This document shows, one piece after another, positions 1-20,332 of a stretch of DNA of 41,071 nt. Below the pieces are notes generated by a model that was given only the letters and a program-made list of their open reading frames with translations, was not told the DNA's origin and made no database searches. The stretch spans positions 1 through 41,071 of the forward strand of contig CAJWII010000003.1 of the NCBI GenBank assembly GCA_913041065.1. Direction: 5' to 3'. Position 1 is the first letter of the stretch, and the number at the start of each line of letters is the position of its first letter. A program made the translations under genes and the position numbers. This DNA is from an uncultured Flavobacteriales bacterium. GTDB taxonomy: Bacteria; Bacteroidota; Bacteroidia; Flavobacteriales_D; Sanyastnellaceae.

Positions 1-438
1 CTGGACCCAGTGTCCACTGAAGTACCGTCGCTGGCCATGCCGCCACAACAGCCAAGTGGCCAGGGGGACGTACAAGGCCACCGGAAGCCAGCCGCCTGGC
101 GAAAAAATTTGAGTGAGGAAATTGACCACAAATCCAATGACGACTGCAGCTGCGGCCTTGGCCATCATGGCCAAGTGGCGGTGATGGGGGCTGCGGTAAA
201 GGCGGTGTGTTGCCCAACCAAACACCAGAGCACCCAACACACTTGCCAAGACGGAATGGCTGATGCCCCGGTGAAACGCCAAGTTGTCGAGTTCGTTCAG
301 GAAATACTGCCCCAGCACATCCATGTCAGGGAGGGTTCCTGCCACAGCTCCCCAGACCATGGCCCGGTTCCCTAGGCGCTTGCCCAGCACCGCTTCTCCC
401 ACCGCCGCACCAAGCACGATTTGTGACAATGAATCCAT
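1..438 (-). CDS. YdjM/DUF457-like membrane-bound metal-dependent hydrolase, C-terminus beyond window
   Basis: Minus-strand open frame of 146 codons from ATG at 438 to the window edge, absent from the ORF track because it has no stop: MDSLSQIVLGAAVGEAVLGKRLGNRAMVWGAVAGTLPDMDVLGQYFLNELDNLAFHRGISHSVLASVLGAL. The PDxD...HRGxSHS pattern is typical of the family. Confidence 0.8.
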   Translation of the reverse strand, partial: MDSLSQIVLGAAVGEAVLGKRLGNRAMVWGAVAGTLPDMDVLGQYFLNELDNLAFHRGISHSVLASVLGALVFGWATHRLYRSPHHRHLAMMAKAAAAVVIGFVVNFLTQIFSPGGWLPVALYVPLATWLLWRHGQRRYFSGHWVQ

Positions 439-1481: not shown

Positions 1482-1646
1482 ATGAAAGCCACAGAACAAG
1501 CAAATTCGCGCGGGCTGTTTCGAGTCGTCCTGCTTGTGGGACATGTTGTGGCGGGCATGGCCCCTGTGGCCTGCCAAACGGTTGCGAACTCGGATTCTCT
1601 CGGGGCGACTGGAGGCGCCTCGACTTCAACATTTGGGGTGTTTTAG
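1482..1646 (+). pseudogene. Truncated relic of a fourth paralog (signal peptide and first mature residues only)
   Basis: MKATEQANSRGLFRVVLLVGHVVAGMAPVACQTVANSDSLGATGGASTSTFGVF* closely matches the N-terminus of the 2824 gene (VAGMAPVACQTVAISDSLGALG) and then stops. Confidence 0.6.
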
Positions 1647-1671: not shown

Positions 1672-2772
1672 ATGCTTCACTCATTTCAACGTTCGGCCAT
1701 CCTTTCGGCTATGTTTATTGGCGCCCTCTGTGTTGTGGGGTCGCCGCTGACGCTGCGTGCCCAATCCACCACTTCTGCCGCGGAGAGCGCGTCGTCGTCC
1801 TTATCTAAGAAGTTTCAGGGCCAGTTTGTCAAAATCACCTTGAACGACGGCACCCTCAAGTTTGGGCAACTCTTGGACGCGGACGAATCAAACATCCTCG
1901 TGGACTTGGTGGGGTTGGGCCCCACGTCGATCCCGAAGTACCTGGTGCTTGACATGGCGATTGAAGTCATGGAAGTGGACGAATCGGGCGAGGTCAAAAA
2001 TTTGATAAGCAGCCAAGCCACCCGGTACTTTTTTGCCCCCTCGGCCAATCAGCTTCAAGCAGGCGAGGGGTACTTCCAATCCAACGTGGCACTGAACTCC
2101 GTGAGTTTTGGATTCTCGGACGAATTCACGGCAGGTGCGATGGTTGGGTTTTTGGGAGTCGGAGTGACCGCCAAAGCCGGGTGGAAAGTTGGAGAGAAGA
2201 CCAGTGTCAGCTTGGGCATGCTCGGCGCGGCAGATTTTTTTGGCGAACTGCAGAAACCCTTGGCCTTGGCCTTCATCAATGTGACCCGGGGCGACGACAA
2301 CAAAAACATCACCTTCAATGTGGGGTGCACCAACACGGCATTCAGGCCTGATTACAGGTCTTACTACAGCCCGGGAGCCACCAGCGAAGACAATGGATGG
2401 GCCACCTATTATTATCCCGAGAGCGAGTACGAGCGTTATCCTCGGGCATTGATGCTGAACATCAGTGGCATGGTGCCGTTGACCGAGAGGCGCTGGCTGA
2501 TTACGGAGAATTACTTCGTCACGCAAAATGCGTTCGCCAAGGTTGTGGAGTCACCGTACTATGGATCGGTGCGCGATAACGATTACTTGAACTACATCTA
2601 CACAGGCGATGTTTTTTGGCCCTCTTCCAACGACGACCTTGGCATCCTTTCTCTGGGCGTTCGAAGCTACAGCAGGCGCAGCGGTTGGCTCTGGGATTAT
2701 GGTTTGGCTGCAGTCATTGTAGATGGCTATGGCGTTCCTGTGCCTTGGTTCTCCTTCACCTTGGAGTTTTAA
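1672..2772 (+). CDS. Outer-membrane beta-barrel-like protein with N-terminal SH3/LSm-like segment, tandem paralog 2
   Basis: MLHSFQRSAILSAMFIGALCVVG signal peptide, FVKITLNDGTLKFGQLLDADESNILVDLVG segment, then the RYFFAPSANQLQAGEGYFQSNVALNSV barrel family. Confidence 0.7.
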   Translation: MLHSFQRSAILSAMFIGALCVVGSPLTLRAQSTTSAAESASSSLSKKFQGQFVKITLNDGTLKFGQLLDADESNILVDLVGLGPTSIPKYLVLDMAIEVMEVDESGEVKNLISSQATRYFFAPSANQLQAGEGYFQSNVALNSVSFGFSDEFTAGAMVGFLGVGVTAKAGWKVGEKTSVSLGMLGAADFFGELQKPLALAFINVTRGDDNKNITFNVGCTNTAFRPDYRSYYSPGATSEDNGWATYYYPESEYERYPRALMLNISGMVPLTERRWLITENYFVTQNAFAKVVESPYYGSVRDNDYLNYIYTGDVFWPSSNDDLGILSLGVRSYSRRSGWLWDYGLAAVIVDGYGVPVPWFSFTLEF

Positions 2773-2867
2773 CACGGCCTCTCTGGGTCCAACTCCACGA
2801 AGGTTGGTGCACTTTTGCACAGCATGAAGCAAGCACATCTTCTGGGGTTGGCGTGCTGGATGCTCCT
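2735..2867 (+). repeat. Direct repeat copy 1 (3' end of paralog 2, intergenic region, 5' end of paralog 3)
   Basis: About 95% identical by eye to 3710..3842 (offset 975 bp), with a 58-bp perfect core at 2798..2855. Confidence 0.85.
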
Positions 2868-3747
2868 TGTGGGACAGGATGTGGCGGGCATGGCCCCTGT
2901 GGCCTGCCAGACTGTTGCGATCTCGGATTCTCTTGGGGCGCTTGGAAGCGCTTGGAATGTGGAGTACACGGGCACTTCCAACCAATCCAATCGATACTTT
3001 CTGGCATCTTCAGCGATCCAGTCGAAACAAGGTCAGGGGCACTATCAAACCAACGTTGCAATGAACTCGTTGAGTTACAGCGTGTCGGACAGGGTCACTG
3101 CTGGGGTCATGGTTGGGTTTTTTGGTGTTTGGTTGACCGCCAAGGCCCGATGGCAAGTCGGAAAAAAGACATGCGTCGGCTTGGGGGGGCTTGGTGCGGC
3201 CGATTTTTTTGCCGCACTGCGGCCACCCTTGGCCTTGGGCTTCATCAACGTGACCCAGGGCGACGAAAACAAGAACATCACCTTCAGTGTGGGGTGCACG
3301 AATGCCGCATTTGGGTCTGGTTGGAAGACATACTACAGCCCGGGAGCCCGCCGCGGTGAGAGTGGGTGGTCTGGCTTCTATTTTCCCGAGAGCCGATACC
3401 GTCGTTATCCTCGGGCATTGATTTTGAACGTCAGTGGAATGGTCCCGCTGACCAAGAGACGTTGGCTGATCACGGAGAATTACTTCGTCACGCAGAGTGC
3501 GTTCGGCAAGGTGGTGCAGTCACCGTACAATTCTCCTGTAGAATCCTCGACCTACCTCAACTCCATCTACACAGGCGATGATGTTGTTTGGCCCTCGTTG
3601 TCTGACGACTTGGGCATTCTTTCTTTGGGTGTTCGGAGTTACTTCAGGCGTAGCGATTGGTTTTTTTGGGATTGTGGCTTGGCTGCGGTCGTCCAGGACG
3701 GCGAGGGCTTTCCTGTGCCTTGGTTTTCCTTCACCTTGGAGTTTTAA
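2824..3747 (+). CDS. Outer-membrane beta-barrel-like protein, tandem paralog 3
   Basis: MKQAHLLGLACWMLLVGQDVAGMAPVACQTVAISDSLG...NRYFLASSAIQSKQGQGHYQTNVAMNSLSY; high similarity to the 1672 gene across the barrel. Confidence 0.7.
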   Translation: MKQAHLLGLACWMLLVGQDVAGMAPVACQTVAISDSLGALGSAWNVEYTGTSNQSNRYFLASSAIQSKQGQGHYQTNVAMNSLSYSVSDRVTAGVMVGFFGVWLTAKARWQVGKKTCVGLGGLGAADFFAALRPPLALGFINVTQGDENKNITFSVGCTNAAFGSGWKTYYSPGARRGESGWSGFYFPESRYRRYPRALILNVSGMVPLTKRRWLITENYFVTQSAFGKVVQSPYNSPVESSTYLNSIYTGDDVVWPSLSDDLGILSLGVRSYFRRSDWFFWDCGLAAVVQDGEGFPVPWFSFTLEF

Positions 3748-3842
3748 CACGGCCTCTTTGGGGCCAACTCCGCGAAGGTTGGTGCACTTTTGCACAGCAT
3801 GAAGCAAGCACATCTTCTGGGGTTGGCGTGGTGGATGCTCTT
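3710..3842 (+). repeat. Direct repeat copy 2 (3' end of paralog 3, intergenic region, 5' end of TonB receptor)
   Basis: Partner of 2735..2867; perfect core at 3773..3830. Confidence 0.85.
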
Positions 3843-6183
3843 TTTGGGGAGCACCTGGGCCCAAACCAACCACACCCTGAGCGGGTACATCACGGACGCC
3901 GCCACGGGTGAAACACTCATAGGGGCCACGGTGTGGTCTGAGTCTGTGGGCCAGGGCGTGGCGTCCAACGTTTATGGCTTCTACACCTTGACCCTACCAG
4001 CCGCCACGTACGACGTACGCGTCAACTACATCGGCTACGCCCCGCAGCGGTTTGAGGTCGACCTGACCTCCGAGGACGTCAAGTTCAACGTGGAGTTGGC
4101 GGCAGGGTTGGAGTTGGGCGAGGCGGTCGTGACGGGCGAGCAACAGAACCGCATTGAAGAGCAGGTGCAGATGTCGCGGATGGAAATTCCGATCGACCAA
4201 ATCAAGGCCTTGCCTGCCATCGGCGGCGAGGTGGATTTGCTCAAGACGCTTCAATTGCTTCCCGGGGTGCAATCGGGGGGAGAAGGCACCAGCGGACTCT
4301 ACGTCCGTGGCGGGTCTCCGGACCAAAACCTCATGCTGTTGGATGGGGTGCCGTTGTACAACGTGAGCCACCTGTTTGGGTTTTTCAGCGTGTTCAACGC
4401 GGATGCGGTCAAGAGCATGAGCATCACCAAAGGCGGGTTCCCCGCGCGTTACGGCGGGCGTTTGTCGTCCATTTTGGAGATCAACATGAAGGACGGCAAC
4501 ATGCGGGAGTTTCACGCGGACGGCAACATCAGTGTCATCGCCTCGAAGCTGACCTTGGAAGGGCCGATTGTGAAGGACAAGGCCAGCTTCATGCTCAGTG
4601 CCCGCCGGACTTACCTCGACTTGTTGTTGCGTCCCATCATCGCCGCAGCAACGAGCAAAGATCCGAGTGTGAGCGCCAACCCGGCATACTACTTCTACGA
4701 CCTCAACGCCAAATTGAATTGGCGCGTCGGACCCCGCGACCGGGTGTACTTCAGCGCGTTCTCGGGCAAGGACGACTTCGGGGTGGAGAGCACAGAAACG
4801 TACGATTTTGACGGAGGCAGAGAACGGTCCACCATCGATCTGGGCCTGGACTGGCGCAACCAAATCCAAGCGCTGCGCTGGAACCGTGAAATCGGCCCAC
4901 GGATGTTCCTGAACGCCAGCGCTACGCACAGCGTCTACAACTTCAACACCGGGGTGGATTTCCGCGACGAATTGACTGAAAACGGCGAAACCACCACGTC
5001 TCGGTTCGCGTCGCTCTACCAATCCGGCATCGAAGACTACGGGGCGAAATTCGACATCGACTTTGCGCCCAACGCACGACACTTTGTGCGCGGCGGCTAC
5101 AACGTGACGAGGCACCTGTTCTCGCCCGGCGCGTTGGCGTTGGAATTGGACTTTGGGCAGGAGAACCCGTTGGACACCCTCATCGGCCAAGGCAACGTCA
5201 AAAGCACAGAACAGTACATCTACCTCGAAGACGAGTTTGAACTGTCCCCCAGGTTGAAGGTGAACGCGGGATTGCACCTCTCTGGCCTGTCGGTGCAGGA
5301 CACGTCCTACGCCAGCTTGCAGCGCCGTTTCGCGCTCAATTGGAAATTGGCGCCGGGTTGGGCCTTCAAAGCGAGCTACGCCGAGATGGCGCAGTTCGTG
5401 AACTTGCTTACCAACGAAGGACTGAGCTTGCCCACCGATTTGTGGTTGCCCTCCACCGCGCGCATCCAGCCCCAAGAGAGCTGGCAAGTGGCCGCCGGAC
5501 TGGCCACCTCCGTCATGGACGGCCAAATTGAACTCAGTATGGAGGGATACTACAAGGAGATGGACGGGTTGCTCAGCTACAAGGAAGGGGCGAGTTTCTT
5601 GTCCGATTTGAGCGGAAACTGGGAGGACCAAGTCACCCAAGGCATCGGCAACAGCTACGGTTTGGAGGCGTTGGTCCAAAAGAAGGTCGGCAAGACCTCA
5701 GGTTGGATCGGGTACACGCTCAGTTGGAGCAATCGGCAGTTTGACGACTTGAACAGCGGCGAGTGGTTCCCCTTCACCTACGACCGTCGCCACGACGTGA
5801 GCGTGGTTCTCACTCAGGAATTCAACCCCGAGTGGTCCGCCTCGGCGACGTGGGTGTACGGCACGGGCCGGGCCGTGACCTTGAGCGAATCGGTGTTCAC
5901 GGGCCTCGCCTACGGCAATTATCCCTACACACCTTCCTTTGAAGTGCCGAGCGAACGCAACGCGTTCCGAATGAGCCCATACCACCGGCTCGACGTGAGC
6001 GTGACGCGGGTGAAGCCCGGAAGCGACGGCAACCGCGCTTTGATTTGGAGCGTATACAACGCTTACAACAACCTGAATCCCTTCTTCGCACTGGCGGACA
6101 CCCAGCCTGACGGCACGCGCGTGATCCGCGAGTACGGTTTGTTCCCCATCATCCCTTCTGTCGCATGGCGTTTCCATTTCTAA
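3799..6183 (+). CDS. TonB-dependent receptor with carboxypeptidase-regulatory-like domain
   Basis: TLSGYITDAATGETLIGATVW..., plug motif GLYVRGGSPDQNLMLLDGVPLYNVSHLFGFFSVFN, C-terminal aromatic beta-strand ending WRFHF. Confidence 0.93.
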   Translation: MKQAHLLGLAWWMLFLGSTWAQTNHTLSGYITDAATGETLIGATVWSESVGQGVASNVYGFYTLTLPAATYDVRVNYIGYAPQRFEVDLTSEDVKFNVELAAGLELGEAVVTGEQQNRIEEQVQMSRMEIPIDQIKALPAIGGEVDLLKTLQLLPGVQSGGEGTSGLYVRGGSPDQNLMLLDGVPLYNVSHLFGFFSVFNADAVKSMSITKGGFPARYGGRLSSILEINMKDGNMREFHADGNISVIASKLTLEGPIVKDKASFMLSARRTYLDLLLRPIIAAATSKDPSVSANPAYYFYDLNAKLNWRVGPRDRVYFSAFSGKDDFGVESTETYDFDGGRERSTIDLGLDWRNQIQALRWNREIGPRMFLNASATHSVYNFNTGVDFRDELTENGETTTSRFASLYQSGIEDYGAKFDIDFAPNARHFVRGGYNVTRHLFSPGALALELDFGQENPLDTLIGQGNVKSTEQYIYLEDEFELSPRLKVNAGLHLSGLSVQDTSYASLQRRFALNWKLAPGWAFKASYAEMAQFVNLLTNEGLSLPTDLWLPSTARIQPQESWQVAAGLATSVMDGQIELSMEGYYKEMDGLLSYKEGASFLSDLSGNWEDQVTQGIGNSYGLEALVQKKVGKTSGWIGYTLSWSNRQFDDLNSGEWFPFTYDRRHDVSVVLTQEFNPEWSASATWVYGTGRAVTLSESVFTGLAYGNYPYTPSFEVPSERNAFRMSPYHRLDVSVTRVKPGSDGNRALIWSVYNAYNNLNPFFALADTQPDGTRVIREYGLFPIIPSVAWRFHF

Positions 6184-7133
6184 CCCGAACAGCATGGGCC
6201 GTGGCGGCCTGCGCGCTGACGCTGACTTCTTGTGACAAGCTGGTCAACGGCGTCGTGAACGAAGTCGAGTTTCCAGAACACGAGCCGCGCTTGGCGTTCA
6301 CCATGTTCCTCGCCCCAGGCGACACCGTCGTGGAGGCCACCATCTACCGCTCTGCTGGGATTTTAGACTCGGCGGGGTCGCAGGCCCTGCAGTGGGCCAC
6401 ACTCAAGGTCTCGCAGGATGGTCAAACGCTGTTCGCAGGCGACTCCTCCCATTGGACAGAGGACGACGTGGAACCCTGGATGCAGGACGCGAACACCTTC
6501 ATGTCAATCGGATTGGACGCGCCCTTGACGTTGGGTGAGGGGCCTGTGGTGGTGGAGGTGGACGCGTCGCCGGAATTCGAGGCCTTGGTGCTGACAGAAG
6601 AGGTGCCAGAGCGCCCCGCCTTCGGGTTTGAGTACGTTCCCCTGGCCGACAGCGTCGATTACGGGTGGGGGGACATGGAATACTTCGACCAAGTCACGTT
6701 GGACTTGTCCAACCGGCCGGGCGTCAGGGACGACTACATGGTCTTCTTGGAGGCCTACTTCGAAGGATCCGAGGACGACGGGAAGTGGTACGCCGAGGGC
6801 GATTTGGCCTTCCCCGATCCCCGGGCCGAGTACAGCTGGAATTGCGGTTGTGTGTTGGTGACCGACAACGGCCAAAACAACATCGACCTGAACAACCTCG
6901 TCTTGGAGATGTACGCAGGTGATGTGGAGGACCCGGACGAGGGAGGTACACAACCCAAACGCATTCGCGTCGTCCGTCCCTCGGCCGATTTGGCCAATTA
7001 TTTGAAAAGCGTGGAGGCTTACTTCAACGCCCAGGGCAACCCCTTTGCGGAGCCCGCAAGCATCCAAGGGAACATCCCAGACGGCTTCGGGATTTTTGGG
7101 CTGAGCAACGCGGCCATCGAGCCGTTGAATTGA
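6165..7133 (+). CDS. DUF4249-type lipoprotein partner of the TonB receptor
   Basis: Lipobox LTLTSC; overlaps the 3' end of the receptor by 19 bp; ...FEYVPLADSVDYGWGDMEYFDQVTLDLSNRPGVRDDYMVFLEAYF; TonB/DUF4249 pairing is common in Bacteroidota. Confidence 0.75.
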   Translation: MAFPFLTRTAWAVAACALTLTSCDKLVNGVVNEVEFPEHEPRLAFTMFLAPGDTVVEATIYRSAGILDSAGSQALQWATLKVSQDGQTLFAGDSSHWTEDDVEPWMQDANTFMSIGLDAPLTLGEGPVVVEVDASPEFEALVLTEEVPERPAFGFEYVPLADSVDYGWGDMEYFDQVTLDLSNRPGVRDDYMVFLEAYFEGSEDDGKWYAEGDLAFPDPRAEYSWNCGCVLVTDNGQNNIDLNNLVLEMYAGDVEDPDEGGTQPKRIRVVRPSADLANYLKSVEAYFNAQGNPFAEPASIQGNIPDGFGIFGLSNAAIEPLN

Positions 7134-17266: not shown

Positions 17267-18747
17267 CGTTTCACCAAGCGTTGCGTCCATGATTTGTCAC
17301 CGGTGGTCCAAGTGACGAGGTACATTCCTGGGTCGAGGTGAGCTGTGGACCAGGTCTGCGTCGATGCACCTGCGGGCATCCATCCCCAATCTTCACGTTC
17401 CACAACACGGCCTTGCGCGTCGTGCAGTTGCAACGCCACTTTGGAAGGTTGGGACAACACCATGTGGAGTGCGGCGAGGTCTTCCACCGGGTTGGGCGCC
17501 AGGCTGAAGGCCATTTCTGAGGTGGGTTCAACCAATGAAGACACGGCAGTCACCTCAAATTGAAATTCCACGCTGGAGAAGTCGTCTGTGCTCTGGAATT
17601 GGATGACCTGCCCCACAGGGGTTTCGCCGTCCATGCCGGTCACAATCAAAGACCCCACATCGGCCAGGCTGGCCGCCCCGGCGATGTGGCCATCGCCCTC
17701 TGTGTCGATCAGAGTGAACGTGTGGCACCCTATGTCGTCCAGCGTGACATCCCAGACGTGCACCGCTTGGCTGCCCAAGGCTTCGGCACCAGGATCGACG
17801 GACGCCACGATTTCTCCAGCTTCGTTGGCGATGGACCATCCAGTTTGTTCAGGTGCTGCGTCAGTGAGGATGCGCACCTGAAGGTTGTTGACGGTCTGCT
17901 CACTCAATTGAATTTGCCCGAGCACTTGGTTGTTTTCCGTGTTGTCGTCCTCCGAAACGATGTCGAACTGCAGCAATTCCAAATCGTCGACGTCCAAGGT
18001 GGTCAACGCGGCGTCGGCCAATTCGTAGGTGTCCAAATTGCCTTCCCAGTCGTACGTGCCGACGACCTCGGTTTGGTTGAAGGGCAACACACGAGACACT
18101 TGAATGGCACATGACGTCAGCGGCTCGAGGCCCTGGTTGAGCAGGCGTACCGAGATTTGGGCAGGAATGCCTCCACAAGCGAACGCGTCTCCGCTGTAGC
18201 CCACCAGCATCGGGTCGTTGGGCAAGGAGGCTGGTGCGCAAGACGCAGACTGCATCAACGACGTGTGGCCTGCGACCGTGGCCTGTCCAGATTCGGTCAG
18301 AAGTCCACTCGGACACACCGTGTAAATCGTCGGGTAGTACGTGCACTCGAACGCGTCGAAGATGTTTTCTGCGTTGTCGATGATCGGGTAATGCGTTCCT
18401 GTGATCCAGTCGCCCGCGGTGGACGGCCCTGTGCCCTCCAAATCCGCTTGGGTGGTGCCGTCGTCCCCTTCGATGAAGAACACGCGCAACTCGTTGGTGC
18501 CGTCGGGGCCGTAGGTGTCGTATAGCTCTTCCAGCACACCGCTTTCGTGGTACGACCAACACGGACCGCACCACGTGGCCGAAAAGTCCAAAATGACTTG
18601 GTACCCGCTGTCCAAGTAGCTGTAGAGGTTGTGCTCGACGCCATTGAGGTCGGTGGCGGTGAAATCGGGGGCCACACTTCCGTCTGGAAGTTGGGCGCTG
18701 GCCAATCCTGTGAACAACAGGAAGAGCAGGGTTGCAAACTGTTTCAT
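17263..18747 (-). CDS. T9SS-targeted thioredoxin-domain protein (paralog B)
   Basis: VILDFSATWCGPCWSYHESGVLEELYDTYGPDG; C-terminal AFSLAPNPVEDLAALHMVLSQPSKVALQLHDAQGRVV...MYLVTWTTGDKSWTQRLVKR (type A sorting domain). Confidence 0.88.
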   Translation of the reverse strand: MKQFATLLFLLFTGLASAQLPDGSVAPDFTATDLNGVEHNLYSYLDSGYQVILDFSATWCGPCWSYHESGVLEELYDTYGPDGTNELRVFFIEGDDGTTQADLEGTGPSTAGDWITGTHYPIIDNAENIFDAFECTYYPTIYTVCPSGLLTESGQATVAGHTSLMQSASCAPASLPNDPMLVGYSGDAFACGGIPAQISVRLLNQGLEPLTSCAIQVSRVLPFNQTEVVGTYDWEGNLDTYELADAALTTLDVDDLELLQFDIVSEDDNTENNQVLGQIQLSEQTVNNLQVRILTDAAPEQTGWSIANEAGEIVASVDPGAEALGSQAVHVWDVTLDDIGCHTFTLIDTEGDGHIAGAASLADVGSLIVTGMDGETPVGQVIQFQSTDDFSSVEFQFEVTAVSSLVEPTSEMAFSLAPNPVEDLAALHMVLSQPSKVALQLHDAQGRVVEREDWGWMPAGASTQTWSTAHLDPGMYLVTWTTGDKSWTQRLVKR

Positions 18748-18859: not shown

Positions 18860-20332
18860 TCAGTGCTTGGTCACACGCATGGTGGTGGTTTCACCTCCAG
18901 CGTTGAAGTTGACGAGGTACACGCCCGCCTTCACAGCTTCGAGGTTCAACTCCAAACGATGTGCGCCTGCAGGCAATGTGCCGAACTCTTGCACAGCGAC
19001 TCGCTCACCCACGAGGTTGATCACTTCCATGGTGGCGTTGGCGGCCACGGCGCTGGTAAATTGGATGTTGCTCACGCCCTGAGTGGGGTTGGGGTACACA
19101 GCCAACGTCTCGATCAAAGAAGCTTCTTCGACGTCGCTCACAGAGGTCACCTCGAAGGGAAACTCAATCACAGCGTACTCGTCGGGAGAGGCGTAAGAGA
19201 GCAAGGTTGAAGACACCGCATTGCCGTCCATGGCGTCCAGCGAGAAGCTGCCGTCAGGGCCGGTGCCATTGTACCAGCTGGCGTGCAAGCCGTCGCCAAA
19301 CGCGTCCTCGATCACGAAGGTGTAGCAGCCGAGGTCGAGCGTCCAGTCGTAGAGGTACTCAGCACCAACGTCGCCTGCGGCGTAGGGTCCGCCAGCGTCG
19401 ACCACGTTGCCCATGTCGTCCAACACGGCCCAGGCCACCTCACCTGGGTACGCATCGAGGTTCAACGTGAAGCGCACGTTGTTGGTGCTTTCCACAGAGG
19501 TGTTCACCAAGCCAGAAGCCACGGCGTTGTTCTCTGCGTTGTCGTCCATCGAGGTGATTTCGAAGGTGAATTCGGTGGAGGCGTCGATGGTGGTGGTGGT
19601 CACCAACACTTCTTCAGTGGCGTAGGTGTCCAAGTTGCCCGTCCAGTCGGTGCTGCCCACGGCAGTGGCGCCGTCGTATGCAGTGATGGTACAAGACGTC
19701 AAGGCGTCCACACCCATGTTCATCAACGTCACCGCCAAAGAGATGGGGGCGTCGCCGCAGGCCACAGATTCACCGGCGTAACCCACGAGGGCGCCGTCGT
19801 TGGGCAAAGAAGCTGCAGCGCAGCTGTTGGCCTGGAAGATGGCCGCGTGGTCCGCCACAGAAGCCTGTCCAGACTCGGTGATGATGCGGCTAGGGCACAC
19901 AGTGTAAATGGTGGGGTAGTAAGCTCCGGCGAAGTCGTCGAAGATGCTGCCCGCGTTGTCGATGATGGTGTACGGCGTACCGGTCACCCAGTCACCTTGC
20001 GTGTTGGCGCCTGTGCCGTTCAAGTCGGCGTCGGTCGTGGTGTCGTCCGCCTCCAAGTAAAACACACGAATTTCGTCGGTGCCGTCAGGACCGTATGTGT
20101 TGTACAACTCAGAGAGGGTGCCTGCTTCGTGGTAAGACCAGCAAGGTCCGCACCAAGTGGCCGAGAAGTCGAGGATGACTTTGTAGCCCTGGTCGAGGAG
20201 GCTGTAGAGGTTGTGCTCGACACCGTCGATGTCGGTGGCGGTGAAGTCAGGAGCCACGCTTCCGTTGGGGAGCTGTGCGAAGGCGCCTGCTGAGATCACG
20301 GCAGAAGCCATGAGGGCGAAGAAATTCTTCAT
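18860..20332 (-). CDS. T9SS-targeted thioredoxin-domain protein (paralog A)
   Basis: MKNFFALMASAVISAGAFAQLPNGSVAPDFTATDIDGVEHNLYS...VILDFSATWCGPCWSYHEAG...; C-terminal LAVYPNPTQGVSNIQF...GVYLVNFNAGGETTTMRVTKH. Confidence 0.9.
   Translation of the reverse strand: MKNFFALMASAVISAGAFAQLPNGSVAPDFTATDIDGVEHNLYSLLDQGYKVILDFSATWCGPCWSYHEAGTLSELYNTYGPDGTDEIRVFYLEADDTTTDADLNGTGANTQGDWVTGTPYTIIDNAGSIFDDFAGAYYPTIYTVCPSRIITESGQASVADHAAIFQANSCAAASLPNDGALVGYAGESVACGDAPISLAVTLMNMGVDALTSCTITAYDGATAVGSTDWTGNLDTYATEEVLVTTTTIDASTEFTFEITSMDDNAENNAVASGLVNTSVESTNNVRFTLNLDAYPGEVAWAVLDDMGNVVDAGGPYAAGDVGAEYLYDWTLDLGCYTFVIEDAFGDGLHASWYNGTGPDGSFSLDAMDGNAVSSTLLSYASPDEYAVIEFPFEVTSVSDVEEASLIETLAVYPNPTQGVSNIQFTSAVAANATMEVINLVGERVAVQEFGTLPAGAHRLELNLEAVKAGVYLVNFNAGGETTTMRVTKH

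Follow-up and report, generated by a model that had tools for sequence, protein, structure and literature searches.

Paralog 3 (P3), a member of a tandem gene array that precedes a TonB-dependent receptor (TBDT), is a recombination mosaic, and the 133-bp direct repeat that flanks it is probably (at a rough probability of 0.7) the scar of its assembly by ordinary homologous and microhomology recombination within the array. P3 (2824-3747, forward strand) combines a TBDT-type leader start, a leader segment of the type preserved in a nearby stub, and a barrel and 3′ end of the type found in its upstream neighbor, paralog 2 (P2). Both this anatomy and the relative ages of the parts are apparent from comparisons within the locus and among congeneric species.

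Organization of the locus and the paralog family

The window, which is the whole 41,071-nucleotide stretch of DNA analyzed here, is an entire contig (G000:C3) of a 1.89-Mb MAG (G000) of a marine bacterium; the MAG is 80.8% complete and divided among 191 contigs. The array copy number given for this genome is based on that single assembly, in which a contig end lies 480 bp from the array. Genes occur in the order YdjM-type hydrolase (reverse strand), paralog 1 (P1), stub, P2, P3, TBDT, DUF4249 gene and second TBDT. At the left edge resides the 5′ part of the gene for the YdjM-type membrane metal-dependent hydrolase (1-438, reverse strand), the rest of which is located on contig G000:C126 and matches PF04307 there (E = 2e-17); the start of the window overlaps C126 by 66 bp, at 95% identity with three mismatches. 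In every congener examined, the hydrolase flanks the array on its left side, with DNA identities of 88% in G004, 78% in G008, and 69-75% in G001, G003, G006 and G010.

P1 (482-1477, forward strand) is an open reading frame of 331 amino acids that comprises a leader and a barrel, shares 38% amino acid identity with P3, and has an ortholog in G004 (dS 0.31). A truncated P1-type paralog also exists elsewhere in the same genome (L066, G000:C141, 2350-3200), and an intact one is found on G004:C120. Immediately 3′ to P1 is the stub (1482-1646, forward strand), a 54-codon open frame that corresponds to the leader of a lost paralog, referred to as Px; G004 carries a shorter stub in the same place. P2 (1672-2772, forward strand, 366 amino acids) follows, and its single-copy ortholog adjoins the TBDT in G001, G003 and G006. 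The window contains another diverged tandem paralog pair (18262-18716 and 19844-20298), whose members are 72-77% identical and 1582 bp apart.

P2 is the canonical member of the family, consisting of a signal peptide, a small, weakly assigned LSm-like domain (E = 0.15, from weak hits to models of LSm and Hfq-related type) and an outer-membrane barrel that is approximately 12-stranded in the AlphaFold (AF2) model (pLDDT 83). The LSm-like domain is absent from P1 and P3. The C-terminal barrel of P3 carries RYF and ENY motifs and retains the invariant residues R57, K107, G146 and R271, and the protein is 60% identical to P2. The P2 model resembles FapF (E = 1e-5, TM 0.40/0.55, about 10% identity), and the barrel can be likened to those of FapF and the NanC-type 12-strand proteins in fold only. 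A FapF-like function was considered and rejected, because only the barrel fold is shared at this level of identity, which does not constitute evidence of amyloid export; the nearest solved folds thus support a predicted outer-membrane barrel and nothing more specific. Relatives are present in 34 of the 100 genomes searched across the genus, family and order, and the named relatives found using P3 belong to Crocinitomicaceae and other Flavobacteriales MAGs. Searches of Pfam and NCBIfam with the paralogs returned no convincing family.

Downstream of the array is the TBDT (3799-6183, forward strand), in which CarbopepD_reg_2 and Plug domains are recognized by Pfam (Plug, E = 6e-12) and which is 96% identical at the amino acid level to the receptor of G008. 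The gene directly after it encodes a DUF4249 protein (6165-7133, forward strand; PF14054, E = 6e-11). The two genes overlap by 19 bp (6165-6183), suggesting coupled translation. The succession of TBDT and DUF4249 is kept in G001, G006, G008, G009 and G010, and is found in two pieces in G003. Such pairs are of a known kind, represented by the TonB-dependent transporter and DUF4249 protein BT2172/BT2173 (PMC11003636). The resemblance is one of arrangement and lies in the DUF4249 gene that directly follows and overlaps the receptor gene, whereas the array of LSm-barrel paralogs that precedes the receptor sets the present locus apart.

The direct repeat and the mosaic structure of P3

The left copy of the repeat (2735-2867, forward strand) spans the 3′ end of P2, the intergenic spacer and the start and signal peptide of P3, and the right copy (3710-3842, forward strand) spans the equivalent segments of P3 and the TBDT. 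The initial annotation had placed the repeat at these positions and across these gene boundaries, with about 95% identity and a 58-bp perfect core, and its description is borne out: 127 of the 133 positions are identical, and the core at 2798-2855 (forward strand) recurs exactly at 3773-3830 (forward strand). Identity is 34/35 in the 3′ coding ends of P2 and P3, 48/51 in the intergenic segment, and 42/44 in the start and signal peptide. When two change-points are left free in a likelihood fit, the edges of the repeat fall at 3710 and 3849, across which identity shifts from 0.74 before to 0.95 inside and 0.18 after, and chance is excluded as the source of the repeat. Apart from the related leader stub (1530-1618), no further copies of the 133-bp repeat were found in the G000 genome, and a search of IMG/VR with the 58-bp core revealed no other copies. 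A short palindrome, GTGCACTTTTGCAC, lies immediately 5′ of the start codons of P3 (2807-2820) and the TBDT (3782-3795); it is retained in G008.

Within P3, similarity to its neighbors changes abruptly from segment to segment. Approximately the first 14 codons (to about position 2863), together with the preceding spacer, match the start and leader of the TBDT. The adjoining segment (2865-2956, forward strand) is instead stub-like, agreeing with 1532-1623 of the stub at 80 of 92 positions (87%), and the switch between the two leader types falls, in frame, within an 11-bp stretch common to both (CTCCTTGTGGG / CTGCTTGTGGG). The barrel that follows is P2-like, at about 74%. Its 5′ half is strongly diverged from P2, while the final 35 coding bases match P2 at 34 positions and are a young copy of it.

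The direction of transfer in the leader can be polarized with G008 as the outgroup. In the first 62 bases from a GTGCAC element, P3 and the receptor differ twice, and both differences are derived on the receptor side, which makes the receptor leader the source and P3 the recipient. The barrel also bears signs of a mixed history. In its 5′ half, P2 and the P2 of G004 agree with each other against P3 at 70 sites versus 11, whereas in the 3′ half P2 and P3 agree more often (29:24); the maximum chi-square is 25.9 (permutation p < 0.0005), with a break near P2 position 2349. This pattern points to further exchange between P2 and P3, although faster change in G004 could contribute to it. A protein tree built to date P3 did not resolve P2, P3 and the P2 of G004.

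The segments differ in age as well as in affinity. Overall dS between P2 and P3 is 0.79, compared with 0.31 (P1) and 0.39 (P2) across the split between G000 and G004, and the body of P3 accordingly looks older than that split, as judged from sequence divergence. The repeat spacer, by comparison, differs at 3 of 51 positions (6%), set against 141 of 537 silent sites (26%) between the receptors of G000 and G008 (Fisher p = 5e-4), so the repeat block looks younger than the divergence of those two species. The initial annotation had stated that the non-coding and signal-peptide sequence is better conserved than much of the flanking coding sequence, and this proves correct when the same 3/51 is set beside the P2/P3 body, where approximately 95 of 189 silent sites differ (Fisher p = 7e-10). 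It had attributed this to recent conversion or to selection on the 5′ region. The first part stands insofar as the block is young compared with the paralog bodies and its copies are alike because they were copied recently; selection is not needed, since the block is sharp-edged and is explained by the assembly of P3. The dN/dS ratios that it had proposed to examine are about 0.35 for P2/P3 and, between species, 0.34 (P1), 0.21 (P2) and 0.06 (receptor); the paralogs are kept, yet change faster than the receptor.

Proposed assembly of P3 and competing explanations

The comparison with congeners includes one genome per species, and the variation that it reveals is variation between species. The array contains no paralogs in G008, one in G001, G003, G006 and G010, at least two plus the stub in G004, and three plus the stub in G000. 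G004 has P1, the shorter stub and P2 in the same order, with its contig ending inside P2, and this P1-stub-P2 segment is colinear with the window at 87-88% identity. In G010, the one P2-type gene is accompanied by a three-gene insertion, which is also present in G005, where P2 is reduced to a leader and remnants of the receptor and DUF4249 genes remain. The genes of the insertion, named by eye, are epimerase-like, CPBP-like and SDR-like (L100, G005:C54, 5500-9500; L061, G010:C100, 8900-11550).

G008 is colinear with the window over 37 kb at about 90% DNA identity, but it lacks the array, and the start codons of its hydrolase and receptor genes are about 34 bp apart. The junction breaks at the GTGCAC element just 5′ of the TBDT start, and genes further to the left differ. 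Divergence from G000 jumps sharply there, over about 50 bp (L058, G008:C17, about 4150-4240), and the palindrome lies at the start of this flank break. Between G000 and G008, dS is 1.55 for the hydrolase and 0.32 for the receptor, while the hydrolase dS between G000 and G004 is 0.22. The left flank has thus been exchanged at the receptor start in the lineage of either G000 or G008. The empty locus of G008 was considered as an excision product of the repeats and rejected, because its junction is different and its flank has been exchanged.

We infer the following order of events for the assembly of P3. The array upstream of the receptor would initially have contained P1, the further paralog Px (now the stub) and P2. 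An unequal exchange at the shared CTCCTTGTGGG would then have joined the signal-peptide start of the receptor to the Px leader, placing a copy of Px behind P2 and the spacer between P2 and the receptor. A subsequent exchange in the homologous 3′ ends would have replaced the last codons of this Px copy with those of P2, so that the P2 3′ end, spacer and receptor start came to flank the new gene at either end, forming the 133-bp repeat. Finally, the original Px would have been deleted down to its leader. The product would be an in-frame mosaic that is translated from a copy of the start region of the receptor. Two exchanges, one between leaders at microhomology and one between homologous 3′ ends, followed by the loss of Px, would thus account for the stub, the chimeric leader, both copies of the repeat and the mixed ages of the segments. 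No intermediate arrays were seen among the genomes compared, and the sequence of steps is a reconstruction based on a single MAG. One point against this account is that the stub is only 87% similar to the P3 leader, and it might instead be later gene conversion that has kept the repeat copies 95% alike.

If P2 had simply been duplicated in tandem and gene conversion had then kept the 3′ ends, spacers and leaders alike, this would explain why P2 and P3 have the barrel and 3′ end in common, and it would fit the P2/P3-shared states that the maximum chi-square test shows in the 3′ half of the barrel. However, P3 lacks the P2 leader and LSm-like domain; its own leader is a fusion of receptor and stub types, and such a chimera cannot arise by duplication of P2 alone, which makes this explanation unlikely. 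It is very improbable that a regulatory or translation-start element under selection instead holds the spacer and signal peptide alike. In favor of such selection, the core shows a single change in about 48 bases relative to the G008 receptor, but the receptor leaders of the other congeners are unrelated and have no such spacer, the folding z-scores of the spacer (-1.2 and -0.7) are near chance, and promoter and terminator scans of it reveal no clear excess over chance. Moreover, the conservation includes the coding 3′ ends of P2 and P3 and then ends sharply. An assembly artifact, in which strains with different arrays were merged into one contig, is made conceivable by a MAG of 80.8% completeness in 191 contigs and by the three mismatches in the 66-bp overlap with C126, which hint at a strain mixture. 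All three paralogs are nevertheless intact frames, the junctions of the mosaic are in frame, P1-stub-P2 is colinear with G004, and the right flank is colinear with G008, rendering such a merger quite improbable. Assembly of P3 by recombination among its neighbors is the best-supported reading, and the locus as a whole is most readily understood as a tandem family evolving by birth and death, through an ordinary mechanism.

Potential for loss or gain of P3 and relation to known systems

The initial annotation had proposed that recombination between the repeats would remove exactly one paralog and that the reverse event would expand the array, and the geometry permits the loss or gain of exactly one. 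The P2 stop codon (2772) and the TBDT ATG (3799) occupy matching repeat positions, and the 975-bp register and common frame leave the flanking genes intact in the deletion product. RecA-dependent or slippage-type events between the two copies could thus delete or duplicate P3: loss of 975 bp would restore the P2-TBDT order that exists in G001, G003 and G006, and the reciprocal event would yield two copies of P3. The 58-bp core is longer than the 23-27 bp given in PMC12074656 as the minimum for RecBC recombination in E. coli. A site-specific excision element (integrase/att, integron or transposon) was rejected, since the window contains no inverted repeats at the lengths tested and no recombinase genes were detected by a Pfam scan among the genes between 0.5 and 9.5 kb.

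The closest parallel is the wzy locus of Salmonella Typhimurium, which is flanked by 113-bp perfect direct repeats and whose repeat-dependent excision, a 2558-bp deletion, is seen in culture (PMC12074656). As at wzy, one locus lies between direct repeats of similar length that are long enough for RecA-dependent recombination, and deletion would leave a single repeat; unlike those of wzy, the present repeats share 95% identity around a 58-bp perfect core, and excision through them would be a potential event. The term "excisable cassette" is a fair, if unproven, description of potential. Ongoing excision and expansion, such that populations hold zero, one or more copies of P3 and the receptor operon is subject to a reversible switch in copy number, would be in keeping with the length and spacing of the repeats, the in-frame deletion product, the wzy precedent and the differences in copy number between species. 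It is nonetheless unlikely, given that the repeats differ at six positions, that G008, the sole species without the array, has a different junction and a flank affected by exchange, and that P3 is still an open frame whose P2/P3 dN/dS of about 0.35 indicates that it is kept. It would be less probable still that P3 comes and goes reversibly as a copy-number switch for surface barrels encoded alongside the receptor, with the cell surface varying within one population as a result.

Tandem paralog arrays that undergo birth-and-death evolution and gene conversion are known in many bacteria, and the present locus resembles them in its copy-number differences between species, its pseudogene stub and its mosaic members. 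It departs from the usual arrays in that one member took both its spacer and the start of its signal peptide from the receptor gene downstream. As an example of how tandem arrays evolve, the locus is clear but ordinary, and it offers a view, at the level of sequence, of how an array of surface proteins grows: a new member acquired the spacer and signal-peptide start of a receptor, and its assembly left behind repeats through which later loss or expansion would be easy. The locus also highlights a family of Bacteroidota proteins, for which no curated name was found, that combines an LSm-like domain with a barrel and adjoins a TBDT-DUF4249 pair.
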